24,361 bases of DNA from a virus, in the IMG/VR virus record IMGVR_UViG_3300042988_000338, positions 1 through 24,361 of that record. One strand, 5' to 3'. Of this stretch, positions 2,306 through 18,902 are shown piece by piece. The stretch's first letter is position 1. The number at the start of each line of letters is the position of its first letter. The notes beneath the pieces were generated by a model that searched no databases, had not been told where the DNA came from, and saw only the letters and a list, made by a program, of their open reading frames with translations. A program made the position numbers and the translations under genes.

Positions 2306-3855
2306 TATCTAACTCCTTTTAATATATCGTAAATAATCTCATACCCAAACAGCCTAGTGTCTACTGAATCGGACACTACAACCATATAAGGTGCGATAGC
2401 TAGGCCTACTTGGTCAGCTACCATAAAATAAGTATTAACAGAACCTAAGTTGTCTGCAAAGAAATATGTTTCCGTACCTGCTGCCTCAAAAAGAAATGAT
2501 GAGAAGTAGATACCTGAACCTCCTCCTGAGCCTAAAGCAGTCGTTGCAACGGATCTGTCAACGTCTGTAGACCAGTTAGTGTTACATTCCAGACCTACAG
2601 AAGTGTTAGAACTTGGAGAGGCTAGTAAAGGACATATTAGCATACTTCGCTTCAAATTGGAAGTCCTATATGTATCAAATGCAAAAAGAACCTTTGCAGT
2701 TATTGCAGTTCCGTTATCTGTCCCTAAAGTTTTTGAGCACTTGTAAGTGTTCGTAGAATTAGCAAAATATACGTAATCCTTATCTTCTACAAACGTGTTT
2801 GTAATAAATCCTGTCCATTTCATCCAACTACTGTACCCTGATTTAAGGCACATTATGTATTGCTCAGTAGCTCCTACAGAGCCCATATTTATGAGCACAA
2901 TACCTAGTTTCTTGATGTAGTATATGCCTAAAGCTTGAGAAGTAGAGTCGGCGTATAAGAACTTGTCAATGATTAAGTTGTTTATCCAAGCGTACGCCTG
3001 ACGAGCTGTAATAACTCCTCGAGTAATATCAGCGACAGAGAAGATGCCTGCGATAGTTAGTAGTAGTACATCTCCTGACACTTTAACTGTTGAAGCTCCA
3101 TAACCTACAGGCTTCGCGCAATCAAAAGTGCCTAAAAGTGCCCACGTATTAGCTGAAGAAGGGTCAGTTCCTGTGAAGATAAGCACTTCACCTTCTGAAG
3201 TAACTACCACTAGTCGGTCATCTATACCAGAACCCGAATCTAAGGTCATTGAGTTCATGGAGTATAGGCTTCCGCCCTTACGCATGTACGTACCTAAGTC
3301 GATCACTGATGCTGCGCCTCCTACACTGTTTAGAGGTAGGTAGATTAAACGGGTAGTGTTCTTTTCAAGCCAGAAAAGACGGTTTTTGAACACTATAGGA
3401 CTCATCAACAAAGATGTCGTAACGCCTGTTATAGCAGGTACGCTCGCGTTATTGACAGTCGTCCAAGTGCTACCGTTGTATAATAGAGGGTCTGCAATAC
3501 CTGTTGCGAAGTACATATATTGCGTTCCAGAAATACCTATCTGAGCCGCGTAAGTGTAATTTGAGTTACAAGACGTCATTGAAGACATTGCGCCCGAAGC
3601 CGTAGTGTCGTACAAAGTACCTACCGCCTTAGCGATTATCTTAACCGTGCCAGAACCTGAGATGTATGTGAATAGCTGATCTATAGAGTCCGCTGCGCCG
3701 GTTCCGTGCGACGTGTAGCCAGGTCTGACAAGTAAAGAGTTACCGTCTACCCACCAGTTTTCAAGGTACGAAGCTTCTACGGGGCTTAACGATGTTAAGT
3801 CCTTATCGGGACGAATTCCACCTATAGGGGCTTGTTTTACACTGCGATAGGACAT
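2305..3855 (-). CDS. Tail nozzle / tubular protein (P22 gp10 or T7 gp12-like)
   Basis: 516 residues, rich in beta-branched residues, Ser, Thr and Gly, with few charges. It opens with APIGGIRPDKDLTSLSPVEASYLENWWVDGN and RPGY, a pattern of podovirus nozzle proteins, in which early residues resemble GG...(D/N)xP...P..A..L.N..... followed by a repetitive beta-propeller. Repeated strand-like blocks (for example LFTYISGSGTVKIIAKAVGTLYD and LLYNGSTWTTVNNASVPAITG) fit a propeller. The gene lies directly after the adaptor and shares a TAATG junction with it, which is the usual adaptor-nozzle order. The protein would extend the portal-adaptor channel as the short tail tube. The assignment rests on pattern and gene order, not on a catalytic motif. 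Confidence 0.7.
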   Translation of the reverse strand: MSYRSVKQAPIGGIRPDKDLTSLSPVEASYLENWWVDGNSLLVRPGYTSHGTGAADSIDQLFTYISGSGTVKIIAKAVGTLYDTTASGAMSSMTSCNSNYTYAAQIGISGTQYMYFATGIADPLLYNGSTWTTVNNASVPAITGVTTSLLMSPIVFKNRLFWLEKNTTRLIYLPLNSVGGAASVIDLGTYMRKGGSLYSMNSMTLDSGSGIDDRLVVVTSEGEVLIFTGTDPSSANTWALLGTFDCAKPVGYGASTVKVSGDVLLLTIAGIFSVADITRGVITARQAYAWINNLIIDKFLYADSTSQALGIYYIKKLGIVLINMGSVGATEQYIMCLKSGYSSWMKWTGFITNTFVEDKDYVYFANSTNTYKCSKTLGTDNGTAITAKVLFAFDTYRTSNLKRSMLICPLLASPSSNTSVGLECNTNWSTDVDRSVATTALGSGGGSGIYFSSFLFEAAGTETYFFADNLGSVNTYFMVADQVGLAIAPYMVVVSDSVDTRLFGYEIIYDILKGVR

Positions 3856-4766
3856 TACGGGGTGAATCTTCCAGGTAAGTTAGAGGCCCAATAAATAGGG
3901 TTGCGTTTAACGTTAGGACGTATCTCCGAAACGTGTGCTCTGTCTGCTTGAGCTGCTTGTTCAAGAAGCCTAGCGATAGTTCTACTCATAGCATCTGCGG
4001 TAGAAGCACCTATCTCCATAAGCCAGAGGTATTCTATAGCAGCCAACACTAGCGAGTCGCTAAATTGGATAATAGTGTCTGTATCGGCTGTAGGAAGGGC
4101 TAGGCGCGTTCCTGCCGAGTTCTTGTAGTAGTAATTGCTGCGATAACTGAGTAGAACGCTCTCAGAAGTGCTTAAGGCAGGGTAAATCTGTATTCTGCCG
4201 TCATTTAAAGCAAATACCTTAAAATTAGTCTGCACAAAGTTGTCATGTGCGTACCTATACAAATCTGACATCTCCATTTGCGAGAAGGACCAGCTTCGGT
4301 GCTCTAAAGAGCAGGGAGGTTGCATAAGTGTTTTAAAATCTGCTGGAAGTGTCCATACGAGCTGTCTCCAAGTATGGTCAACTGCGGTGCCTGTTGTAGT
4401 AGCAGGACGAGATACAGTAACCGTAGTGCTATCGACTATGGTTTCTATAAAAGTAGGATTAGCGACGTTCTCGCCGCTTAATTCGTCTCCTACAGCCATA
4501 GCGGCCGTGGAGGTTGTGGTAATAGTTGAACTGTTAGCTGTAGTCGTAAGAGGTACTGTAGCTTGCGAGCCTAGTAAACTCTGAGTTCTTATAAGGCTAG
4601 ACCATCCCGCATTGCGTGCAATGAGATTATCTACAGCCTTATAAATGAAGTGCTTTAGCTTTATTACAGTTTTGTCACTATTTCCTATCAGTGACGTCGG
4701 CGTTCTTATTCCGAGAACTCCTCGTTCCGCTGCGTACTGTGCTATTTGTAGAATTGTCGAACCCAT
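3855..4766 (-). CDS. Head-to-tail adaptor protein (P22 gp4 / T7 gp11-like)
   Basis: 303 residues. The N-terminus (TILQIAQYAAERGVLGIRTP, then TSLIGNSDKTV) matches the usual opening of podovirus adaptors: a helix ending in (R/P)PTSxxGSxD, then a helical region that packs on the portal. A Ser/Thr-rich strand section follows (residues about 70-135) and a C-terminal helical segment with an Arg/Asn-rich tail. The start lies 89 nt inside the preceding gene and has only a weak purine-rich stretch upstream. I keep it because the family N-terminus begins right there and no later Met would retain it. The protein would form the ring that closes the portal and carries the nozzle. Confidence 0.75.
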   Translation of the reverse strand: MGSTILQIAQYAAERGVLGIRTPTSLIGNSDKTVIKLKHFIYKAVDNLIARNAGWSSLIRTQSLLGSQATVPLTTTANSSTITTTSTAAMAVGDELSGENVANPTFIETIVDSTTVTVSRPATTTGTAVDHTWRQLVWTLPADFKTLMQPPCSLEHRSWSFSQMEMSDLYRYAHDNFVQTNFKVFALNDGRIQIYPALSTSESVLLSYRSNYYYKNSAGTRLALPTADTDTIIQFSDSLVLAAIEYLWLMEIGASTADAMSRTIARLLEQAAQADRAHVSEIRPNVKRNPIYWASNLPGRFTP

Positions 4767-5205
4767 GTTCTTTAAGTCTCTCTTGAATGTCTCCCAATGT
4801 GTTTAAGCCTATAGGAGTTTTAGGGTCGCCTGCCATCACCTGTTCGATACTAGTAATGCCAGCTTCTTTAAGCATAATTTGTTCCGCTTTAGTCACAGGG
4901 TTTCTTTCTTCTGCCTGCTTCTTGCGCTCTTGGTAGCCTGCCCATGCTTGAGGGTAGTATTGAGGAAAGAAACTGTCTTCCACTTCATATGCAGCTACGA
5001 TGCGTTTATCTTTATTCGTTGCGATCTCCACTACGGTAAGATCTCGCCAAATTTCACGTCTTTTATCTTTAGTAATTCCGCCGTATTGATTGGCGACATC
5101 TCTGAAAACTACGAAAACACCTGGGTCGGTTTCCTTAGGAAGCGTCCGAGTTTCTCGTCCTTCATGTAACACTGTTGAATATTCTAAACTATCCCAATTT
5201 TCCAT
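4678..5205 (-). CDS. Structural-operon protein of unknown function
   Basis: 175 residues, mostly charged and soluble. The start has a textbook SD (GGAGGT, 6 nt before the ATG). Residues 1-100 include FVVFRDVANQYGGITKDKR and AAYEVEDSFFPQYYPQAW and look folded. The last 30 residues (from about DNSTNST on) are low-complexity Asn/Ser/Thr/Arg and coincide with the overlap with the adaptor gene, as expected if the tail was adapted to a second reading frame. I recognise no domain. It sits between the cement and adaptor genes and downstream of a promoter and stem-loop, so it is probably an assembly factor or minor head component. Confidence 0.75.
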   Translation of the reverse strand: MENWDSLEYSTVLHEGRETRTLPKETDPGVFVVFRDVANQYGGITKDKRREIWRDLTVVEIATNKDKRIVAAYEVEDSFFPQYYPQAWAGYQERKKQAEERNPVTKAEQIMLKEAGITSIEQVMAGDPKTPIGLNTLGDIQERLKEHGFDNSTNSTVRSGTRSSRNKNADVTDRK

Positions 5206-5231
5206 CTGTTAACCTCCGTACAAAGAAATAA

Positions 5232-5249
5232 GGCAAGTTTTCACTTGCC
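5232..5249 (-). promoter_or_regulatory. 5'-terminal stem-loop with GAAA tetraloop
   Basis: On the minus strand a perfect 7-bp stem GGCAAGT/ACTTGCC is closed by GAAA, a GNRA loop, and followed by the T-rich TTATTTCTTT. It begins about where the promoter at 5255-5283 should start RNA. It could therefore be a 5' cap-like stabiliser of the adaptor-nozzle mRNA. For transcripts reading through from the capsid genes it could instead act as a partial terminator. The stem is seen; the role is inferred. Confidence 0.65.
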
Positions 5250-5254
5250 CTATT

Positions 5255-5283
5255 ATGATATCATGTATCAACATTGCTGTCAA
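5255..5283 (-). promoter_or_regulatory. Internal late promoter (sigma70-like)
   Basis: On the minus strand: perfect -35 TTGACA (5283-5278), a 17-bp spacer, and -10 TATCAT (5260-5255, five of six consensus). The expected start is near 5249, at the foot of the stem-loop. It would drive the 175-residue gene and the adaptor, nozzle and tail genes separately from the capsid genes. Confidence 0.65.
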
Positions 5284-5302
5284 GACATGACGGAGGTCAT
5301 CT

Positions 5303-5779
5303 TTAGAAGATGTAAGGGTCTTGTAAGTGTACGACGCAAGTGCCTGCTCCAGTTACGGCAGTAGCAAAGAATGCACCAAACAGCTCATCGCCTGCATTCA
5401 CAGCATCGTCAACAGAACCTGCAGTTGCTGTAGCGTAAACGCGAGCGCCTGCTGCAACAGTACCTGCGGTGTTACATAATAACTTACCTCTGATAGCAAA
5501 CCATGAAGCGGCTGAAGTAGAAGTATTGGCCGCTAGAGAAATAGCTACAGGGCCAGTGCCTCCGGCTACTAACCTTGTGGTAGCACCTGTTGAAGCGTTA
5601 TAAGTAACAGCATCGTTTGCTGCTAGAGAAGCTACACCGTAAAGGTATACTACATCGATGATTCCGTATGTAGGGTGATTGACTCTGACTACGTCGCCGA
5701 TCTTGGCGTTTAAGGTAGTTGAAGTTTCCTCTAAGCCTTGATTAACAAAACGTGAATCGTTTAAAAAATAATTGCTCAT
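5303..5779 (-). CDS. Capsid cement / decoration-like protein
   Basis: 158 residues dominated by Ala, Gly, Thr and Val, with alternating hydrophobic strands (GDVVRVNHPTYGIIDVVYLYG, then VYATATAGSVDDAVNAGDELFG). It resembles small beta-rich head proteins (often described as decoration, stabilisation or cement proteins) that follow the major capsid gene in many phages and are made in similar amounts. AAGGAG stands about 10 nt before the ATG and the gene starts 12 nt after the capsid stop. Such proteins bind the outside of the shell at local symmetry axes. The position and composition support the call; no unique signature confirms it. Confidence 0.6.
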   Translation of the reverse strand: MSNYFLNDSRFVNQGLEETSTTLNAKIGDVVRVNHPTYGIIDVVYLYGVASLAANDAVTYNASTGATTRLVAGGTGPVAISLAANTSTSAASWFAIRGKLLCNTAGTVAAGARVYATATAGSVDDAVNAGDELFGAFFATAVTGAGTCVVHLQDPYIF

Positions 5780-6843: not shown

Positions 6844-7883
6844 ACGTTTTTTAACTCCGCACGCATCATAGCAGCGATTTGCTCTCTACGCGATAAACTG
6901 GAAGGATCTACAGTATTCTTAGTGCCTTGAACAGGTGCAGGAGAAGATACTTTTGAAGCCTCTTCAACCTTCTTAGCTCTTAAACTCTGTTCAAGCTCTT
7001 CTTTTTGCTTATTCACGAGAACTGCGCGGGTAGCGGGGTCCGCCCAGATAGCTTGCTCGTATGCATCTTCTAAACTCTTAGCCGTTTTGGAATTTAACAT
7101 CGACACCATAGCCCTTTGAATAGCTGGATGCTTAGCGTACTCGTGATTTTGTGAGAAAGCGTTAAATCTTTCTTGCAACAGTTGATTTTGAGCTTGCTGA
7201 AGTTGACGATTTAGGTTGGTAATAGTCTGTGTTGCTCGAACGGCATCCTCGTCGGTAAATTGTACCGCGCCGCCTTCAATAGCCAATCCTTCTAAACCGT
7301 ACTCTGTCAACAAATCTTTGAGAACTGCGGCCTTCTCTGCGATATCTACATGAGGGCTTCGCATATACCCGTCAACCTTAGCCAAGCGTCCTACAAAGTC
7401 TTCTGGAGCGATATTGTTAGCTGTCAACCATTCTTTATGCCCTTCTAAAGATTTGTCTACAGCCGTGAGCATCGGCATCTTAGTCGTGACAAAAGTGTCG
7501 ACATCTCGAAGTACCATCTGGACCGAAGGAGGTAAGTTTTTGACTTCCTCATCAGTAAGCTTGTACGCTTCACGGATACTTGAACTCGCTGCGTCCCATA
7601 GAGTTTTATCTGCAGCTCCTTCAGTCGTAGCAGCTTCAGTGTTATCTTCTGCAGGTGCAGCTTCTTTAGCTTCTATAGGCGCATCTGCGGGAGCTTCTTT
7701 ATTAGCCTCTACCGGAGCGGCAGGCGCTTCTTTAGCTTCTACGGTCTCAGCTTCCTGAATAGCCTTAACATAAGCCTCTCGTATAGATGTTGCGGCGTTA
7801 GTATCCGTACTATGTGCATAAGGGTCTGACGTGACTTGCGAAGTAGGTGCTTCTGTACTCGAGGGTACTGTATTTTCTTCCAT
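6840..7883 (-). CDS. Capsid scaffolding protein
   Basis: 347 acidic, Ala- and Glu-rich residues. Residues about 40-95 are a degenerate EAKEAPA-type repeat, probably disordered. A helical region follows, with a coiled-coil stretch near residues 220-245 (LNRQLQQAQNQLLQERFNAF). The C-terminus is Lys/Glu-rich and ends with a small basic helix (SRREQIAAMMRAELKNV) of the sort scaffolds use to bind coat subunits. Length, composition and position directly before the major capsid gene are typical of podovirus scaffolds, which drive procapsid assembly and then leave. AGGAGGT lies just upstream of the ATG. No protease motif is present in it. Confidence 0.85.
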   Translation of the reverse strand: MEENTVPSSTEAPTSQVTSDPYAHSTDTNAATSIREAYVKAIQEAETVEAKEAPAAPVEANKEAPADAPIEAKEAAPAEDNTEAATTEGAADKTLWDAASSSIREAYKLTDEEVKNLPPSVQMVLRDVDTFVTTKMPMLTAVDKSLEGHKEWLTANNIAPEDFVGRLAKVDGYMRSPHVDIAEKAAVLKDLLTEYGLEGLAIEGGAVQFTDEDAVRATQTITNLNRQLQQAQNQLLQERFNAFSQNHEYAKHPAIQRAMVSMLNSKTAKSLEDAYEQAIWADPATRAVLVNKQKEELEQSLRAKKVEEASKVSSPAPVQGTKNTVDPSSLSRREQIAAMMRAELKNV

Positions 7884-7896
7884 TTAAAACCTCCTG

Positions 7897-8253
7897 TTAA
7901 ATGTTTTTAAGAATGTGTTGTTTATATTGATGAATCAATTCCCGTTTCCGATCTCTCTTACTTATTAAAACTTTTCCTCCTGTATTTTTAGCTAAGTAGG
8001 TGTTATGATCTGCAATTTCTACCATACCTGTCTTAGCCAGATGTGCCTTATGAGCAGAAAGCGAGTCTATATATTCACCCGTAACAGTGCTAGTATAACC
8101 TTTAAAGTCATATGCTGTAAAGGCTTGAGTTACGAAAGTACGTGCTAAAGTTGCTCCGCAGCCACACTGCTGAGGAAGATTCCTATCGTCTATCGCCAAA
8201 CTTAAAGTTGAATACTCTTTACAGCTAGGACATTTAAAAGTGTACTCAGGCAT
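7897..8253 (-). CDS. FmdB-type zinc-ribbon protein
   Basis: 118 residues with the start at MPEYTFKCPSC. I prefer this ATG over one 15 nt upstream because AGAGGTG stands at the right distance and MPxYxFxCxxC is the normal N-terminus of the family. Cys8, Cys11, Cys30 and Cys32 (CPSC and CGCG) form one zinc knuckle pair, and LARTF after it is also typical. The C-terminal half is basic and helical (SKRDRKRELIHQYKQHILKN). The start overlaps the portal stop by 8 nt. The ribbon may bind nucleic acid or protein; in cells the family is poorly understood, and a role in head assembly or in regulating late genes is only inferred from position. Confidence 0.75.
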   Translation of the reverse strand: MPEYTFKCPSCKEYSTLSLAIDDRNLPQQCGCGATLARTFVTQAFTAYDFKGYTSTVTGEYIDSLSAHKAHLAKTGMVEIADHNTYLAKNTGGKVLISKRDRKRELIHQYKQHILKNI

Positions 8254-10099
8254 CGTCACCTCTCTCATGCTTCATTTGATCAACCATGAGCTTACCTGCT
8301 TCTTTCATAGCGTTCAGTTGCATCTCTTGCTGCTTAAGCATCAACTCCTTAGTCTTAATCTCACGTTCTAACGCCTGTTTTTGCTGCTCTAACTGAGCGT
8401 CAATCATTTTAGATTGCTGCTGAGCTTGAGTCTGCATCTGCACCATCTGCACATCAGAAGAAGGCTGTGGTGGAGGCGCTTGTAACGCTCCTTGGAGAAG
8501 TTGCTCTACGGAATGTTCTACTTGATCCGTGTTATTAAACTGACGTATTACGTATAGTGATAACTCTACAAGGCTTGGTACTACTTGAGGATTTGTAGCA
8601 GCCACTTCTTTACCCATTCTAACCACTTGCCCTAACACGTTCAACATCTCCATGGAGTCTTTACGTTTTGCTGCGTCATCCTCTTGAGCCATCGACTCAG
8701 GGTATATCGTTAAACGAAATGAGCGTGTTTTCTCCTTGCGTAATAGTTTAAGAGCAGGTTCTATAATTCCGTAATCGTCTTGTGACAATCCAAACAATGC
8801 TGTAGACCGCTCTAGTAAGTCTTTATCCGAATACGTCTCTGCGAGCAAGTCTGCGCCGACGTTTAGAACGTCCTTAACGTACATAATGAAGTCCGTTTTA
8901 AACTGCACTTGCTGTGCAGTGACTGTAGCCTCTTTGGATTTAATAGAAGCCGCAGATTCATATTGACCTTGCCCTAAACCCCCTACGATACCTCCTGTGA
9001 CGGTACGTAAACGTTGTAGCAAGTCTGCACGGATGCTTTGGAGTCCTTGAATTGAGGACACAATCTTTTCAAGCGGAGTGAAAACAATCCCTTTTGTAAT
9101 GTCTGTGGGTTCCGCCAGCCCTTGCCAATCTTGTACCGAGTACCCTACTCCGCAATCTCCATCAAATAACTTCTCTAACATATCCCCAAACCTAGCGTCG
9201 TACAGATAGTTAAGTTTAGCAATACTAATCAGATCGTTAATAGCTCTGTCAGTGTCAGAGAGCTTCTGTAGTAAGTCTTGGAAATAATAGTATTCGGGCA
9301 CAGGATAAGAACTTTCGCTGTCCAAATCGGCCATAAACGGCTTAGGTATAGGATAAAAGTCTCCTATCTCCAAAGTGTAATCAGATTCATCAAGAATTTC
9401 TTCCGAATCTAAGCACACCCAAATAACTTTTGTGTTTAGCTTGTCGAACACCTGATATATCTTAGGGTAATTGCCTAAAGACTCCTTCTCGCGTATGGAC
9501 ATTTCTATGCGGCTGTCTGAGCCTGTATACTGGCTTGAGTCACCTGATTTAAGCGCCTTAGCCTTACCCCACCGTTTAACACGCTCATCAAACGGCACGT
9601 CATGACGTACTGCGATCCAAGGGGTTTCATTCCAGCAAGGTGAAATAGGGAACACTACACGGTCGTACTTAAGATGTACGGGGACTACTCTATCTTCATC
9701 TTTAACATACTTCCACATCATAAAGCCTGCGCCTGCAACCACGCGATCTCTGATAACTAGCTTCAAAGTGTCATGGAAATCTCTACTCGACTCGAGTACT
9801 TCCTTCATATTACGTTGTAACAGAAAAGAGGCGACGCGGCCGACAGGGTCGTTATCTTTAAACGTTCTGAACACTTTAATCTTAGGTGGCTTAGTGTAAA
9901 TACTAGCCGTCAAATCTTTAGAATACTTCCAGAAATTGTTTTCAGAGATGATCTCTTTAACATCACCTTCTACATTCCCGTGAGAAGTAAAATAAGATTT
10001 ATACGCGCCGTCCGCACGATTAAGATATCGTTTGTATTTGTCGCCGTTAAGGACTGTGTTTATTCTGCGAGTCCAGCTGCGCGAAGTTTCATTACTCAT
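8246..10099 (-). CDS. Portal protein
   Basis: 617 residues using the ATG at 10099, which has GAGG 9 nt upstream; an in-frame TTG 15 nt earlier is possible but lacks a good SD. It follows the terminase and precedes the scaffold, the usual position. The first 130 residues are basic and helical (SWTRRINTVLNGDKYKRYLNRADGAYKSYFTS), then come strand-rich segments with several Trp. The middle has LQKLSDTDRAINDLISIAKLN and a Gly-rich stretch (TVTGGIVGGLGQGQYESAASIKSKE), typical of the portal stem and tunnel-loop region. The C-terminus is a Gln/Lys/Glu coiled coil of about 70 residues, like the barrel of P22-type portals. Twelve copies would form the DNA channel at one vertex. Confidence 0.85.
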   Translation of the reverse strand: MSNETSRSWTRRINTVLNGDKYKRYLNRADGAYKSYFTSHGNVEGDVKEIISENNFWKYSKDLTASIYTKPPKIKVFRTFKDNDPVGRVASFLLQRNMKEVLESSRDFHDTLKLVIRDRVVAGAGFMMWKYVKDEDRVVPVHLKYDRVVFPISPCWNETPWIAVRHDVPFDERVKRWGKAKALKSGDSSQYTGSDSRIEMSIREKESLGNYPKIYQVFDKLNTKVIWVCLDSEEILDESDYTLEIGDFYPIPKPFMADLDSESSYPVPEYYYFQDLLQKLSDTDRAINDLISIAKLNYLYDARFGDMLEKLFDGDCGVGYSVQDWQGLAEPTDITKGIVFTPLEKIVSSIQGLQSIRADLLQRLRTVTGGIVGGLGQGQYESAASIKSKEATVTAQQVQFKTDFIMYVKDVLNVGADLLAETYSDKDLLERSTALFGLSQDDYGIIEPALKLLRKEKTRSFRLTIYPESMAQEDDAAKRKDSMEMLNVLGQVVRMGKEVAATNPQVVPSLVELSLYVIRQFNNTDQVEHSVEQLLQGALQAPPPQPSSDVQMVQMQTQAQQQSKMIDAQLEQQKQALEREIKTKELMLKQQEMQLNAMKEAGKLMVDQMKHERGDDA

Positions 10100-10265: not shown

Positions 10266-11779
10266 AAAATTTTTCCTGTGTTCTTAGTTTTCTTTGGTTT
10301 GTAATCTGCTAAAGACGAGAAGAAGTCTTTAAGGTCGCCAGGCTTCTTAGTTGTCTTAACGCGATCTAAGGTACCTTTCTGAGCTATCATATAAGACGTC
10401 TGTTCGACGGACATGCAGGCGTACCTGACTTCATCCGCAACGTGGTCTTCTTGACCTGATGCAAGCTCATCAGTTCCTTCTTTATAAATTAAGCCAGGAA
10501 AAGTTCTTATCATTTCCGAGCATGTAGAAAAACAGTAAATTGTGGGCCTCTCGGCGCCACGCAGTCTATTTCGTAAGATATCCCAACCGCCCATTATCCC
10601 ATCTTTTGAATTTCGACGATTTACTGCTTTTCTAAATGCTACCTTCCCTCCGCTACCTCTACGAATTCTCTCTGCTACGCTAATTGTACCGGCTTCGTTA
10701 AAGGCGCTAGGATCTAATACACATAAGTTACTGTCTATATTAGCATCGGCCGCTTCCATAAGTGCAATACTAGCACCAATCTCTTCAGAAGTCAATTTTA
10801 ATCCAACGTTAGGCCTTATTCTGCCCTCGGCATCTTTGTCTGCTCCGTACCACTCTCTATAGCGAATGATCGTGCCTGCGTCAAAGTTAAGTTGTCCTAT
10901 CTGAGTGTTGTCAGGCACTATCGCCCACCAGCCTACTGAAAACGGCTCTCTAAATCCTGAGTCCATAGACCGGAACTTCTTCCAGTGCATAGGAATAATG
11001 AACGGTTCAATGACATGCTTACCTAAGTCAAAGTCCTCAAAGAAGCCTCCTGTGGCCACGCTCCACTCTCCGTCAAGCATAGCTCTAACCTCTTCGGGCT
11101 TACCCATACCGTGCAGCACGCCTGCGTAATCATCATAATCTATCGAGGGATTGTCTTTAAGCCTGGAGGGAATGAATTGTCGCGTCATCCCACCTTCCTC
11201 TAAAGGTGCTTTCCAAATCTCCATTGGCTCATGCCCCCACACGAAGGAATTGCCTACCCAATTATACCCGATTCCTAGCGGATTCGAGACTGCGATGACG
11301 TGGGCTTTCTTCTTGTAGAAGTTTTTGAACAGCTCTTTAGGTGCGCGCACGCGGCTACGCATTCTTTGATAGAACTCGTAAGGGAATTGTGTAAGCTCTT
11401 CTACCAGCAGGATGTTAAACTCTTTACCTTGGAAGTTCTCAAAGTCTGACATCTTCTTCATGTAGGCAAACGTGATGTTGCTACCATTCGCGAACTTTAT
11501 GCCACTCTCTGGGTCAATGCTGACTTGCTTTGACTTGATCAAAGGCGCAAGCATCGCACGGTAACCTGTCATACCTTCTAACTGCTGCTCTGCTAAGTCG
11601 GCCTTCTGCTTACGGAAGAAGAATATCTGTACGCCAGGCACGGCCAAGGCTGCTAGGATGCTGTACACCCTAAGTAAGTGAGACTTACCGCCACCTGCGG
11701 CGCCTCCGTACAGTATCTCCGTTGCCTCCGACTCCAGGGCTAAGCGCTGCTTCGGATGGAGATTGAACATCTCTGACAC
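10262..11779 (-). CDS. Terminase large subunit
   Basis: 505 residues, the DNA-packaging motor and headful/cos nuclease. The ATPase domain has Walker A GGAAGGGKS at 25-33 and Walker B ILLVEE at 123-128 with the catalytic Glu pair. The C-terminal RNase H-like nuclease has acidic residues at Asp273 (MDSGF), Asp356 (VLDPSAF) and Asp445/Asp449 (EDHVADEVRY), in the expected order. The start is GTG overlapping the upstream TAG, with AAGGA 9 nt before it; a downstream ATG (residue 4) lacks an SD. No small-subunit gene is recognisable in the window: it may be outside it or unrecognised. It acts with the portal at the procapsid vertex. Confidence 0.95.
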   Translation of the reverse strand: MSEMFNLHPKQRLALESEATEILYGGAAGGGKSHLLRVYSILAALAVPGVQIFFFRKQKADLAEQQLEGMTGYRAMLAPLIKSKQVSIDPESGIKFANGSNITFAYMKKMSDFENFQGKEFNILLVEELTQFPYEFYQRMRSRVRAPKELFKNFYKKKAHVIAVSNPLGIGYNWVGNSFVWGHEPMEIWKAPLEEGGMTRQFIPSRLKDNPSIDYDDYAGVLHGMGKPEEVRAMLDGEWSVATGGFFEDFDLGKHVIEPFIIPMHWKKFRSMDSGFREPFSVGWWAIVPDNTQIGQLNFDAGTIIRYREWYGADKDAEGRIRPNVGLKLTSEEIGASIALMEAADANIDSNLCVLDPSAFNEAGTISVAERIRRGSGGKVAFRKAVNRRNSKDGIMGGWDILRNRLRGAERPTIYCFSTCSEMIRTFPGLIYKEGTDELASGQEDHVADEVRYACMSVEQTSYMIAQKGTLDRVKTTKKPGDLKDFFSSLADYKPKKTKNTGKIL

Positions 11780-14337: not shown

Positions 14338-14868
14338 ATGAAAGCATACAACCTTCCTCGCATCTCTAAAAGGTACTATGAGGCCAGATTAAAGCAGTTA
14401 GAAGCCTCGTATCCTCCTCCCAGCTGCTACGAGTGGGCGTATGCCTCTCTTAGAGATCTAGGGTCTGTTATGAGATGTTACGTGTCAGCTGCTAAGATGG
14501 ATCAGCTGTTATGGATGCAATCTGTAGGTATGGTGCAGCAAGGCACACAGCGGCACGCTAAGTGGTACCAAGAATATAACAGATATTATCCACGACAAGG
14601 CTACCGTGAGAGAGGTTGCAGGCGCTTAAAGGAAGCTCCTCCACGTAAAGCGACCTACGAGTTGGAGCAAGATGTGCAAATAAGAGACATGAAGCATAGT
14701 TACAGGGTAGACGTGGCAGGATACTTAGCGTATCATCTGCAAACTCCTGAGTATGCGGCTTGGAAGGCAGAAAAAGAGCGTGTCGAAGGTAGAGCATTAA
14801 CCTCGACAGAGAGATCGAGGAAGCGAAGAAATTTGCTTAAACTCAAAAAGTTGTCTATAGTAAGTTAA
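14338..14868 (+). CDS. Basic early protein, function unknown
   Basis: 176 residues, strongly basic and rich in Tyr and Arg, with an Arg/Lys-rich C-terminus (STERSRKRRNLLKLKKL). Segments are helical (YYEARLKQLEASYPPPSCYEW). AAGGAG is well placed before the ATG. There is no zinc or nuclease motif. Charge suggests nucleic-acid binding, and lying beside the A+T-rich element makes an origin-binding role possible, though nothing in the sequence tests this. Confidence 0.7.
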   Translation: MKAYNLPRISKRYYEARLKQLEASYPPPSCYEWAYASLRDLGSVMRCYVSAAKMDQLLWMQSVGMVQQGTQRHAKWYQEYNRYYPRQGYRERGCRRLKEAPPRKATYELEQDVQIRDMKHSYRVDVAGYLAYHLQTPEYAAWKAEKERVEGRALTSTERSRKRRNLLKLKKLSIVS

Positions 14869-14886: not shown

Positions 14887-15042
14887 ATGAAACGGTTTTG
14901 GAAACGAGCATTGAATGAGTTGAAAGATGTACTTATGGGCGTGGTGCTTATAGGGATCTTGGTGTTGTTTGCAAGTCCCTTGGCAGGGATCATCACGGTA
15001 CTTATTGCAGTGGCACTGTTAGCGGCCTTGGGGCTGTTTTAG
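14887..15042 (+). CDS. Small two-span membrane protein (51 residues)
   Basis: MKRFWKRALNELKDVLMGVV... with a basic, amphipathic N-terminus and two membrane spans (about 16-31 and 33-51), separated by the turn SPLAG. AGGAGG is 6 nt before the ATG and the stop overlaps the next SD. It could sit in the inner membrane as an early effector, or act as a second holin-type protein; neither is supported beyond topology. Confidence 0.6.
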   Translation: MKRFWKRALNELKDVLMGVVLIGILVLFASPLAGIITVLIAVALLAALGLF

Positions 15043-15561: not shown

Positions 15562-15778
15562 GAAAGAATATTGGATGCTACATATTGTGAAGGATCCAGA
15601 GATGCTTACAGCGTTAGACACAGCATCTCGGATAGCTTACTACTCGGTAAGCGCTGCGACGGTACTGTTTAGCGCGTTAACGCCACAAACAGTGATGCCT
15701 TACAACATCAAACGAGAGATCGTACGCGAGGCTGTTGAGGCCGAACAGTATATAAGATCTGGGAAGGCGGTACTATGA
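15554..15778 (+). CDS. Small early protein, function unknown
   Basis: 74 residues with an acidic helical N-terminus (MTEKEYWMLHIVKDPEML), a hydrophobic centre (AYYSVSAATVLFSAL) and a helical end (REIVREAVEAEQYIRS). The centre is marginal as a membrane span. AGGAGG stands 5 nt before the ATG. The stop overlaps the nuclease start by 4 nt (ATGA), so the two are translationally coupled and this protein may be a partner of the nuclease; that is inference only. Confidence 0.65.
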   Translation: MTEKEYWMLHIVKDPEMLTALDTASRIAYYSVSAATVLFSALTPQTVMPYNIKREIVREAVEAEQYIRSGKAVL

Positions 15779-16449
15779 GCCTGACATTTGACAAAGAATC
15801 GCATACTTACAGAGTGTGCGGGTACAAAGTGCCTTCCGTATCCCAGCTCCTAAGTCTCGTTGCCCCTGATTACTCAAAAGTAATGAAGAGCGTTTCCGAA
15901 GAAGCGAAGAAAAAAGGCACTAAGCTGCATGACGACCTTTATAACTACGTCACGACGCGGGACAAATCTTTACTTAAGGAACTTCACGTAAGAAACTTTA
16001 GCGAGTGGTTAATATATCGAGAGAAAGAGGGTTGGCAGGTGTATAGTGCAGAAGAACCTTACTGCTCTTGGTACGATCCAAAAGATCCTGAGTTGAAAGA
16101 ACAGTTCTTGTTCGCAGGGACTCCTGACTTAGTACTTGTAAGCAATCCTTACGGTACTCCGAAGAAAATTATGGTGGTAGACTATAAAACGGGAGTGTGG
16201 CAAAAGTACTACGAGTTGCAATTAGCGCTATATGGAGAGCTGGTAATGTATGGGCAAGAGGGTTTAAACAATAACTTAGAAATAGATTATCAAATAGACT
16301 ACGTAGGAATTAATTTTAACGCGGAAGGAGCTATTAAGATATATCACGAATTTGATAAGTCCAGAATGACTCGTGCGGCATATGGGCTAATCAAATTGTA
16401 TGAGTGGATGCCGGAAGAAATGCGTGCAAAAATTTGGCTAAATAAATAA
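15775..16449 (+). CDS. PD-(D/E)XK nuclease (RecB/Cas4-like, probable recombination exonuclease)
   Basis: 224 residues with the full motif set of the PDDEXK_1 superfamily: His52 (KGTKLHDDL), the Glu pair at 93-94, G-T-P-D at 115-118, D-Y-K at 136-138 in VVDYKTG, and Gln149 in ELQLALYG. Asp118, Asp136 and Lys138 would form the metal site. No cluster of cysteines for an iron-sulfur centre is seen, unlike many Cas4 proteins, so it is better compared with phage single-domain recombination exonucleases. It probably makes single-stranded ends or degrades host DNA along with the primase/helicase and VRR-NUC genes downstream. Confidence 0.85.
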   Translation: MSLTFDKESHTYRVCGYKVPSVSQLLSLVAPDYSKVMKSVSEEAKKKGTKLHDDLYNYVTTRDKSLLKELHVRNFSEWLIYREKEGWQVYSAEEPYCSWYDPKDPELKEQFLFAGTPDLVLVSNPYGTPKKIMVVDYKTGVWQKYYELQLALYGELVMYGQEGLNNNLEIDYQIDYVGINFNAEGAIKIYHEFDKSRMTRAAYGLIKLYEWMPEEMRAKIWLNK

Positions 16450-16479: not shown

Positions 16480-16851
16480 ATGAGCTTATTAATTGGTAAC
16501 AGCAGAAAACGTAAACTCTATGGAGTGCCTACAAAAGAAGGTAAAGTGTACATCACAAACCTTGAAACACTGTACGAAATGGCTGAGTTTTCAAAAATGA
16601 TTTCTCCTGTGTATATGAGGAGCGAAGCCCAATCGATGAAGGTATCGAGTAAAGCAATCCTCGACCGTCGGATACTTGATCAGTTGAAGAAACATAACAT
16701 AAAAGTAGAAGAGCGGGAGTATATCACAGACGGAGGCTACCCTAACGAAGATTCATATGATGCAGGATCTTTAGGGTTAGAGATGGCGTCTTTAGTTTAT
16801 TGGAGTAATGGAACTGCTAAGACTGCCGTAACCCCTTTTAGGGATGCTTAA
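16480..16851 (+). CDS. Protein at head of lysis block, function unknown
   Basis: 123 residues with a basic N-terminus (GNSRKRKLYG), helical middle (AILDRRILDQLKKHNIKVEER) and a Gly/Tyr-rich end. No membrane segment, cysteine or catalytic motif is visible. The ATG has the recurring module AAGGAGATATC just before it and it follows a candidate promoter. It is separated by 12 nt from the secreted protease gene and is co-directional with it. It could be a regulator or partner of that block, but I recognise no family. Confidence 0.65.
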   Translation: MSLLIGNSRKRKLYGVPTKEGKVYITNLETLYEMAEFSKMISPVYMRSEAQSMKVSSKAILDRRILDQLKKHNIKVEEREYITDGGYPNEDSYDAGSLGLEMASLVYWSNGTAKTAVTPFRDA

Positions 16852-16863
16852 TGAGAGGTTAAT

Positions 16864-17490
16864 ATGAGAACGAAGATAGCAACGTTAATATTGCTTTTAT
16901 TTTTTAGTGTAACTCCTTACCTACCGACAGCCGTAACTCCGGTAGTTGCTCAAGCAAAAGAGGATGCAGGGCTTGATTACTACATGGACGGCTACTTGAT
17001 CCACGGAGAGATAGGAGACTTAAGCGAGTACCATGAGTTATTGACAGCCCTATTAATAGCCAAAAAAGGCGACGAGATCGCTCTTTATATAGACTCACCA
17101 GGTGGACAGATGTATACAGGATACGCCATTAATATGGCGATGCACAAATCTAAAGCGCGCATATGGGTGTACTGCCTTAATTGTATATCAGCAGCAGGGT
17201 ATATTGCAGCAGGCGGTACAGATATGATACTTACCCCTGAAAGTATCGTGCTTGTACACCTTGCAAGTAGAGGGGATCTTGTTAAAATCACTACAGGAGA
17301 TATCTTTAAATTGTCTAGCGGATTTGCACGAGGAGTGCTCGAATCTATACATTTACCTGAATCAGAGATAGCTCCACTTATGATAGACGTTGATAACGCT
17401 ATGGACGTGTGGCTAAGCGGTTCGCATATTTGCCTAACCAGTACTCGCGCAATACAGCATCCAATTGGTTGTTATATTTCTATGAGGTAA
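16864..17490 (+). CDS. Secreted ClpP/SppA-like serine protease
   Basis: 208 residues. An N-terminal signal peptide is clear (MRTK, then hydrophobic IATLILLLFFSV; cleavage is plausible after VVAQA, residue 31), so the enzyme probably works in the periplasm or on the membrane. The ClpP fold motifs follow: IDSPGG at 76-81, the nucleophile Ser109 in ISAAGYIAAGG, His132 in VLVHLAS and Asp181 in AMDVWLSG, in the ClpP order. Distances are one or two residues shorter than in ClpP. GAGAGG lies before the ATG. Ordinary phage ClpP-like enzymes are cytoplasmic prohead proteases by the capsid genes; this one is exported and lies beside holin and endolysin. It might help lysis or attack envelope proteins. 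Confidence 0.75.
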   Translation: MRTKIATLILLLFFSVTPYLPTAVTPVVAQAKEDAGLDYYMDGYLIHGEIGDLSEYHELLTALLIAKKGDEIALYIDSPGGQMYTGYAINMAMHKSKARIWVYCLNCISAAGYIAAGGTDMILTPESIVLVHLASRGDLVKITTGDIFKLSSGFARGVLESIHLPESEIAPLMIDVDNAMDVWLSGSHICLTSTRAIQHPIGCYISMR

Positions 17491-17495
17491 TCAAT

Positions 17496-17693
17496 ATGTA
17501 CAAAACTATTCAAAAATTCTCTGCAGGATTAGGATTTACAGGATTTCTTACAGCCGTAAGTCTTTTCTTCCTAGGTTACATATGGTATGCGATAGGCGCT
17601 CTATTAATTACAGGAGTCATTTTTAACATCCATAATTGGGCGCTGCAATCTAGCGTAGCTGACGAAGCTTCTAAGTATCTTAATAGGAGCTAA
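17496..17693 (+). CDS. Holin candidate (65 residues, two membrane spans)
   Basis: I choose the ATG at MYKTIQKF because GAGGT is well placed, while a longer in-frame start would run back into the protease gene. The protein has a basic start, two membrane spans (about 10-28 and 30-46) with a tight turn, and a polar C-terminus (SSVADEASKYLNRS). This size and topology match class II holins. It lies 5 nt after the protease gene and 1 nt before the endolysin, which has no export signal, so it is the likely timer and pore for lysis. Confidence 0.65.
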   Translation: MYKTIQKFSAGLGFTGFLTAVSLFFLGYIWYAIGALLITGVIFNIHNWALQSSVADEASKYLNRS

Positions 17694-17694
17694 T

Positions 17695-18300
17695 ATGAAA
17701 ATTTTAAAAAACAATCTGGCAGCGTTTCTTGCAAATCTTCATGCAGAATCTGGAGGCTTCAAATATACCGAAGAAAGCTTTCGTTATAAATCACCTGCAC
17801 GCGTGCGTCAAATGTTTAGTAAATGCCGCGAGATGTCTGACGCTGAACTTACAGCGCTCATGAAAGATCAAAGAGCGTTAGCCAATTTTGTGTATAACGG
17901 TCGTATGGGAAACAGAGAGGGCTCTGACGACGGTTGGAACTTCCGGGGTTCTGGGTACATCCAACTAACAGGTCGTGATAACTTCAAAGCGTTTGCGGAA
18001 GAAGTTCCAGCATTGAATTTAAAAGGGTATCCCGAAATGTTGGCCAATAAAGTGCGCACAGATCCTTACTTCTCAGCTAAAGCTGCTCAATGGTATTATG
18101 AAAAATATCTTGCGAAATCGTCGAGTATTAAAGATATGATATTTAGAATAAACCCTGGACTTAAAAATAATGGACAAGAGATCCTTAAACGCCTTAACCT
18201 AGCAGAGCGTTACCATGCAGCCATAACTCGTAAACCTAGTTACGATGACAGCTATTATTTAGATAACTTACTAAATTACATAGGAGATTACAAACTATGA
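17695..18300 (+). CDS. GH19-type endolysin (chitinase-like muramidase)
   Basis: 201 residues. The GH19 motif FLANLHAESGGF has the catalytic Glu at 18, and DDGWNFRGSGYIQLTGRDNF further on is the highly conserved signature of phage GH19 endolysins. These enzymes cut the beta-1,4 bonds of peptidoglycan glycan. There is no signal peptide, so the holin is needed for release. AGGAGC precedes the ATG. The family usually has about 25-30 more N-terminal residues before the first helix; here it begins almost at that helix and no upstream start is seen. The gene ends by ATGA overlap with the kinase gene. Confidence 0.9.
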   Translation: MKILKNNLAAFLANLHAESGGFKYTEESFRYKSPARVRQMFSKCREMSDAELTALMKDQRALANFVYNGRMGNREGSDDGWNFRGSGYIQLTGRDNFKAFAEEVPALNLKGYPEMLANKVRTDPYFSAKAAQWYYEKYLAKSSSIKDMIFRINPGLKNNGQEILKRLNLAERYHAAITRKPSYDDSYYLDNLLNYIGDYKL

Positions 18301-18902
18301 TTATCGGGCTTATGGGATATGCAGGAGCAGGTAAGGACTACGTCGGCAACATTCTTGTCGAAGATTTCGGATTTAAAAGAGCCTCCTTTGCAGACACGCT
18401 TAAAGAATTCGTCTTAGAACATTACAAACATCTTAAGCCTTACGACGTGTATGATCCTCAAGGTAAGGAATCTCCGGTATCTACTACGCTGTATATAGAC
18501 GATCTAGCTCAATTTCTTTACGCTAAATTTGGGAAACCTCCACAACTTCCAGAAGGCTTACCCGAATTCGTGCGATGCTATACTCCACGGGAGCTTTTGC
18601 AACACGTAGGACTTTACGCTCGAGAATGGTTAGGCGAAGATATCTGGGTGGATAATATAAAGTATGATGACACTCAAGACACTGTAATCACTGACGTTAG
18701 ATTTAATAATGAGTGTAACTGGGTTAAAGGCAACTTAGGTTACTTAGTATTAGTTGACAATAAGTATGTAGATAGGCGTTCTATGCACGTATCAGAAAAC
18801 GTTCCTCACGACTATGCAGATTTCATTGTTCCTAACACCTTAGCTTCTAAAGAATTTTTGGAAAAGGAATTATCTAAAATAATTTACATCATAAATAACT
18901 AG
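18297..18902 (+). CDS. Deoxynucleoside monophosphate kinase-like protein
   Basis: 201 residues with a P-loop GYAGAGKD (7-14), in which the Asp after Lys replaces the usual Ser/Thr, as in phage dNMP kinases related to T4 gp1. The sequences ADTLKEF, TPRELLQHVG and ITDVRFNNE are all typical of the family. The enzyme would phosphorylate dNMPs to supply dNTPs for phage replication. Its start overlaps the endolysin stop, so lysis and nucleotide genes share a transcript. The fold call is strong; substrate range cannot be predicted. Confidence 0.8.
   Translation: MIIGLMGYAGAGKDYVGNILVEDFGFKRASFADTLKEFVLEHYKHLKPYDVYDPQGKESPVSTTLYIDDLAQFLYAKFGKPPQLPEGLPEFVRCYTPRELLQHVGLYAREWLGEDIWVDNIKYDDTQDTVITDVRFNNECNWVKGNLGYLVLVDNKYVDRRSMHVSENVPHDYADFIVPNTLASKEFLEKELSKIIYIINN

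Follow-up and report, generated by a model that had tools for sequence, protein, structure and literature searches.

A putatively exported serine protease of the ClpP type is encoded in the lysis block of a phage genome, at positions 16864..17490 (+ strand) of the window, i.e., the whole 24,361-nucleotide stretch of IMG/VR record IMGVR_UViG_3300042988_000338 that was analyzed. An earlier note on this DNA had described an exported ClpP-like enzyme beside a holin and an endolysin; the observation is confirmed and its interpretation is partly supported, and the context now provided by T5-like phages and by a second phage contig is stronger than that note could know. The reading tentatively preferred here, held with slightly less than even confidence, is that the protein would be a periplasmic ClpP-type peptidase acting with the lysis proteins as a lysis accessory, a role for which we infer export, proteolytic activity, oligomeric state, substrate and timing. 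What computation establishes is the ORF, the ClpP fold, the alignment of the catalytic residues, a leader resembling a signal peptide, the order of the genes and, in an unrelated phage, another leader-bearing ClpP within a complete lysis operon.

The open reading frame is real. It codes for 208 amino acids from an ATG located 5 nt after a Shine-Dalgarno sequence (GAGAGG, 16853..16858, + strand), and the stop codon of the preceding gene ends 12 nt before this ATG. Met41, the alternative start that leaves the protease domain intact, has no good ribosome-binding site as judged by eye. When codon usage was scored with a table built from other genes of this phage, frame 0 came out positive and best in all eight 20-codon windows covering codons 21-180; in the same test the leader window was neutral and the end of the gene negative.

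The predicted protease matches the CLP_protease family PF00574 over residues 60-138 (2.8e-10, 40.8 bits, above the gathering score of 20.2), and its best PHROG is phrog_1827, "ATP-dependent protease" (1.2e-15), ahead of all head-maturation families. A phmmer search of the PDB returned ClpP (9e-5). In the AlphaFold model, the block means are 90-94 over residues 51-120, confidence is lower past residue 130 and pLDDT is below 50 in the leader; the best Foldseek matches of the model in the PDB are ClpP structures (1.5e-7), SppA (4kwb) appearing at rows 36 and 37 among the first 40 matches listed. VIA paired it with ClpP2 of P. aeruginosa (Z 13.5, rmsd 3.3 over 144 residues), and its viral structure matches, among rows bearing a name, are mostly phage ClpPs. 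Judged from the model, the protein is of the ClpP fold, and its predicted affiliation by profile is nearer to phage ClpP (phrog_1827) than to SppA. Of the ClpP/SppA group proposed in the earlier note, ClpP is the closer, a choice with which the structural comparison proposed at the time agrees; the SppA profile TIGR00706 is matched at 19.4 bits, well short of its cut-off (155). Bacterial ClpP (peptidase family S14) shares the fold and the aligned catalytic residues, but is only ~16-23% identical, has no such leader and is represented by an equivalog profile, TIGR00493, that the window protein matches at 25.8 bits, far under its cut-off of 308.6. SppA and NfeD1b are ATP-independent, membrane or periplasm-facing enzymes of the ClpP superfamily. 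Both resemble the window protein through weak profile matches, but neither curated cut-off is reached (NfeD1b PF25145, 19.1 bits, gathering score 40), and the encoded protease has no C-terminal membrane domain.

The residues proposed for catalysis in the earlier note stand where it placed them. Ser109 (codon 17188..17190), His132 (17257..17259) and Asp181 (17404..17406, all on the + strand) are found at these positions in the translation, the serine and the histidine being invariant in alignments of 8 and of 27 sequences and the aspartate occupying a D-x-[WY] position. The Ser-His and His-Asp distances of the putative triad (23 and 49 residues) are those of the ClpP of the T5-like phage Slocum (23/49), with 23/51 in Sugarland, and the announced IDSPGG motif is present.

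The signal peptide claimed for the protein is likewise there according to a home-made hydropathy/AXA rule, which was adjusted between three versions of the screen. A Sec signal peptide is predicted over residues 1-31 (16864..16956, + strand), laid out as MRTK-IATLILLLFF-SVTPYLPTAVTPVVAQA^KE, i.e., with a positive n-region and a hydrophobic core (mean Kyte-Doolittle value of 3.09 over 10 residues); cleavage is placed after AQA by eye and after VVA, two residues earlier, by script. A stricter version of the rule (cut-off of 2.6, tighter cleavage) was passed by 3 of 322 phage ORFs preceded by a Shine-Dalgarno sequence, namely the window protease itself (copy L184), a wall hydrolase and a lipoprotein-like ORF, the latter two being plausibly exported. 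The N-termini of relatives translated from T5-like and other phages are hydrophilic and bear no leader. The leader of the window protease is convincing, and export through Sec is predicted from it; because of this leader, no cytosolic Clp ATPase is favored as a partner.

A plausible leader was found in 2 of 184 ClpP-like sequences, counted as distinct over a core of ~70 residues with the two positives included, and taken from 76 viral contigs, 63 genome contigs, 27 GTDB genomes and 18 phage records. The two belong to the window phage (L001) and to contig L228, and both genes lie in lysis blocks; the cut-off of the screen, 2.4, was fixed after the value of L228 (2.70) was known. A third positive, the host ClpP L125, was judged to be an artefact, its "leader" hanging on an upstream start. 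Query P0018, run across 398 genomes of one phylum, found a match in 358 of them (best E 5e-16), and none of the 27 distinct ClpPs obtained from 30 loci of that genome set has a leader. Since both leader-bearing ClpPs sit in lysis blocks, a periplasmic role linked to lysis is the best reading of the window protease.

The 3′ end of the gene is unusual in its codon usage over the last ~26 codons (17410..17490, + strand). Over the last 20 codons the score is -5.0 (mean 7.6), a level as low as that of 0.7% of 2213 in-gene windows, and none of 145 stop-free control windows shows so large a lead of the -1 frame over frame 0. This -1 frame is open over 17410-17693, from the end of the protease gene through the following membrane ORF, and looks more like coding sequence than frame 0 does across the last 20 codons. 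One codon table included the first 477 bases of the protease gene, and the tail figures relied on use tables from other genes. Along with the drop in model confidence after residue 130, such figures would suit a decaying or non-proteolytic gene, whose sequence past Asp181 has degenerated or lost the frame and whose product is a remnant or a structural or regulatory ClpP fold. The chances of this are considered slim, given that frame 0 remains positive and best across codons 21-180, that the three predicted catalytic residues all precede the atypical tail and retain their spacing, and that a near-identical contig carries the same tail sequence. When compared with 12 phage ClpP tails, neither reading of the tail does better than shuffled sequences (as good in 619 of 1000 shuffles for frame 0 and in 583 of 1000 for the -1 frame), which gives no positive sign of a broken end. 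Low scores at the tail are also seen in another test gene (14338-14868). The codon shift had raised the idea of a frame-shifted, NfeD1b-like fusion between ClpP and the membrane protein; a profile of leaderless ClpPs reaches into neither tail reading, and homology to this profile and to the 12 ClpP tails favors neither frame.

The protease gene is directly preceded by an ORF of 123 aa to which ORF calling and family scans assigned no function (16480..16851, + strand) and, further upstream, by a PD-(D/E)XK exonuclease gene (15775..16449, + strand; PF12705, 5.4e-6; phrog_298, 1.4e-14). It is followed by a gene for a 65-aa membrane protein with two hydrophobic stretches (17496..17693, + strand; Shine-Dalgarno GAGG at 17484-17487), by a gene for a leaderless, GH19-like endolysin (17695..18300, + strand; phrog_181, 7e-31; PF00182 weak, below its cut-off) and by a deoxynucleoside monophosphate kinase (dNMP kinase) gene that overlaps the endolysin stop (18297..18902, + strand; phrog_139, 1.4e-31). 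The endolysin neighbor reported earlier is supported; the membrane ORF does adjoin the protease gene, but is a holin candidate by its size, position and hydrophobicity, a 61-aa piece of it having matched no family, holin families included. A further holin candidate of the same arm is a 51-aa, strongly hydrophobic membrane ORF preceded by a Shine-Dalgarno sequence (14887-15039; phrog_24311, 0.0089).

As the earlier note had remarked, the protease gene is far from the capsid genes, the portal and capsid genes lying ~7-10 kb away on the opposite strand. This location argues against a prohead (head maturation) protease that has moved away from the capsid genes, as does the leader. Head-maturation profiles do come second (phrog_2976, 4.1e-12), and NF045542 is matched at 42.6 bits, but the latter falls well below its cut-off of 120 and the best family, phrog_1827, is not a head family, so that a prohead function appears highly improbable.

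The window has one near-identical counterpart, IMGVR_UViG_3300047552_000530 (99.995% identity over 21.5 kb), in which PF00574 occurs once. The last 953 bases of the window are the first 953 of that record, and the end of that record falls inside the window; because the ends overlap both ways, the two records appear to cover one circularly permuted genome of ~41 kb. Queries with the protease, the portal and the endolysin found no other close relatives, and a terminase query retrieved the near-identical contig and 46 loci with at most ~55% local identity. Conservation of the gene beside holin and endolysin genes, which the earlier note had proposed to look for in related phages, is consequently seen as distant parallels, in T5-like phages and in L228.

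Among 19 ClpP neighborhoods taken from phage records, ClpP adjoins lysis genes in eight, all T5-like or T5-arranged: Slocum, Stubb, Eos, Sugarland, Kenya-K37 and KEY, which belong to the Demerecviridae, and Vibrio D386 and D260 (the T5 gene number, T5.042, is taken from notes in the Slocum record). In the GenBank record of Eos (MN478377), the T5-type ClpP (L056 4842-5513) is annotated "holin" and the gene before it is labeled "protease." All eight lysis-adjacent ClpPs, and 10 of 10 relatives scanned, have phrog_1827 as best family. They share with the window protease this family, the Ser-His distance, a His-Asp distance of 49 (Slocum) or 51 (Sugarland) and a position beside holin, endolysin and dNMP kinase genes. 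On the other hand, the T5-like ClpPs are leaderless, the gene order is kinase, ClpP, holin, endolysin rather than ClpP, holin candidate, endolysin, kinase, and the holin and endolysin types differ from those of the window. As the kinases are homologous (window versus Kenya-K37, E 4e-9) but the endolysins are of different types, the comparison of sequences indicates a block common to the window and the T5-like phages even though its parts are not all related. The statement that no established phage lysis system has such an enzyme accordingly needs a qualifier, T5-like phages having an annotated, leaderless ClpP in that block.

An annotated dNMP kinase stands beside ClpP or one gene away in seven of the eight lysis-adjacent records, the exception being Eos, where the gene is labeled otherwise; in the window, two genes lie between. 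This association could mean that a T5-type ClpP is tied functionally to the dNMP kinase and to early or middle genes. The lysis neighbors would then come from an ancient common block, and a leader acquired later and locally would anchor the enzyme at the membrane. Phage ClpPs outside the block, which adjoin other genes, often PhoH, fit this proposal as well. It is nonetheless regarded as improbable in view of L228, whose exported ClpP keeps company with lysis genes and in which no dNMP kinase was recognized among 10 ORFs scanned or by eye in 10 kb.

In the other 11 neighborhoods (KVP40, AD45-P1, KLEP7, PPSC2, ICP1, J2-1, pf16, CR3, 203, F93, and phiPsa267), no annotated holin or endolysin gene adjoins ClpP, a count that an unannotated holin would escape as many of the neighbors are "hypothetical." A gene for a PhoH-like ATPase is found beside ClpP or within a few genes of it in 8 of these 11 large phages, and PhoH might be the unfoldase partner of these ClpPs. 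A rough base rate was drawn from 148 neighbors of 77 viral ClpP entries, by taking on each side of a ClpP gene the longest ORF that lay within 900 bases; 104 neighbors were scanned, consisting of 101 of the 148 and of three placed by hand for L189 and L228 that were already recognized as lysis genes. In this rough sample, portal and major head families are the commonest among the best 25 of 80 families, and the holin family phrog_860 has two members. In L189, another lineage in which ClpP and a wall hydrolase are neighbors, a leaderless ClpP directly follows a Hydrolase_2 (SleB-type) cell-wall hydrolase with its own hydrophobic leader (PF07486, 5.9e-25; ORFs 4351-4893 and 4899-5576), and a PD-(D/E)XK nuclease is encoded upstream.

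The second leader-bearing ClpP lies on L228 (IMGVR_UViG_3300035695_000022), a contig of 16 kb which, as labeled by eye, carries a repressor-like gene and a gene for a DnaB-type helicase and has a lambdoid look; this contig is the strongest support for the lysis reading. Its genes are ordered as holin (phrog_920, 5.7e-9), 43-aa membrane ORF, exported ClpP, 105-aa membrane ORF, GH24 endolysin (PF00959, 1.1e-41), Rz (phrog_1026, 3.7e-14) and, overlapping Rz, Rz1 (phrog_1275, 4.4e-18), with start-stop overlaps at both ends of the 43-aa ORF and in front of the endolysin gene. The ClpP start overlaps the previous stop and has no clear Shine-Dalgarno sequence; the leader, called by the same home-made rule, reads MKTRWQFWLALMLCVGLAFAVRA. 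The protein matches PF00574 (2.2e-25), and its model (mean pLDDT of 78.9) resembles ClpP 1yg6 (Foldseek 6.7e-16, TM 0.72). It has Glu175 where an aspartate is expected, like several aligned head-maturation ClpPs. Both proteins thus combine a predicted leader, a ClpP fold and a placement in a lysis operon or block, whereas they are 33% identical over 94 residues, differ in the acidic residue (Glu versus Asp) and, in L228 only, are followed by a GH24 endolysin and Rz/Rz1. Because the best families differ, phrog_1827 for the window protease and phrog_94 (head-maturation ClpPs) for that of L228, where phrog_1827 ranks fifth, the sequences suggest that the two exported ClpPs were recruited separately.

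The remainder of the phage genome bears on what such a protease might do. The + strand arm that carries its gene also carries replication genes (exonuclease, dNMP kinase, primase). Contig L171, which belongs to the genome of this phage, codes for a GroEL-like chaperonin (997-2580; phrog_5725, 6.1e-117; PF00118, 2.6e-42), an HslV-family peptidase-like protein (7471-8064; phrog_1040, 5.4e-9; no Pfam match at 0.1) and a membrane protein with a weak SbmA/BacA match under its cut-off (8066-8878; PF05992, 4e-4), which is unexpected in a small phage. As an HslV-like peptidase is encoded besides the ClpP-like protease, this phage may have two different barrel-protease-type folds. L171 also encodes a 304-aa protein (3735-4649) whose middle part weakly matches phrog_181 (1.9e-3) and which shares 31% identity with the endolysin of the window across 97 residues; it may be an additional lysozyme or a decayed one. 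The chief rival to a lysis role is that the exported protease serves host takeover or superinfection exclusion by removing a receptor, a transport protein or an envelope-stress factor, its adjacency to the endolysin gene being incidental. The exonuclease, dNMP kinase and primase genes of its arm and the richness of the genome in proteostasis and envelope genes (GroEL, HslV-like, the weak SbmA/BacA-like match) are in keeping with this explanation, which is nevertheless deemed rather unlikely, an unrelated exported phage ClpP (L228) being found in a tightly coupled lysis operon.

A role as a spanin substitute was set aside as the first choice. L171 carries an Rz-like ORF with a transmembrane segment and a coiled coil, an i-spanin candidate (9588-9887; phrog_739, 1.9e-3), and a lipobox (LTGC) ORF with no family match, a spanin candidate (10697-11104), both on the + strand arm ~15-16 kb downstream of the window endolysin; within the window, no lipoprotein ORF preceded by a Shine-Dalgarno sequence was found among ORFs of at least 45 aa. 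The protease is probably not a spanin substitute. As spanin candidates exist elsewhere in the genome and no lysis function is visibly missing, the lysis reading is also weakened. It is weakened further because the T5-like ClpPs in a similar block are leaderless, so that adjacency need not mean a periplasmic role, and because 11 of the 19 phage neighborhoods have no annotated lysis gene beside ClpP. Glu175 of L228, the neutral leader codons, the atypical tail, an arm shared with replication genes and a 65-aa ORF devoid of holin family support count against it as well.

Under the preferred reading, a lysis accessory, the ClpP-fold protease would differ from the cytosolic phage ClpPs in that Sec would carry it into the periplasm. 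Working without ATP and without a Clp unfoldase, it would there cleave at least one protein of the envelope or periplasm, and lysis by the neighboring holin candidate and endolysin would thereby be timed or completed. Likely substrates would be envelope-tethering or repair proteins, or else a regulator of holin or endolysin action located in the periplasm. Because the periplasm offers neither ATP nor a Clp unfoldase, they would be expected to be unfolded, membrane-near or flexible. Other ATP-independent members of the ClpP superfamily cut substrates of this kind. Degradation of the T4 antiholin RI by DegP, as discussed in a section of PMC8385771, is a precedent for periplasmic proteolysis touching lysis, and a degP deletion cited in that section left lysis inhibition unaltered (PMC8385771).

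Among the matches listed in a search of the open-access literature, no title or abstract opening concerned a secreted lysis protease, which is weak evidence of absence, and neither of the two papers found there on bacteriophage T5 and Clp protease was about the T5-like ClpP by its title. Lysis by phages of diderm bacteria is described in terms of a holin, an endolysin and a spanin or disruptin. A secreted protease is not known to be part of this scheme. The known T5-like arrangement lowers the absolute novelty of the finding. Since a ClpP in a very similar block is present in the T5-like phages, which serve as a laboratory model group, the question of its role is directly testable. More broadly, and as a possibility that is on balance doubtful, exported ClpP-type peptidases would be an unrecognized lysis accessory in some diderm phages, having arisen on two or more occasions when separate branches of cytosolic phage ClpP acquired a signal peptide, and the leaderless T5-like ClpP would be a related solution from the cytoplasmic side. 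Any ClpP-fold enzyme in the periplasm would have to do its work without ATP or an unfoldase.
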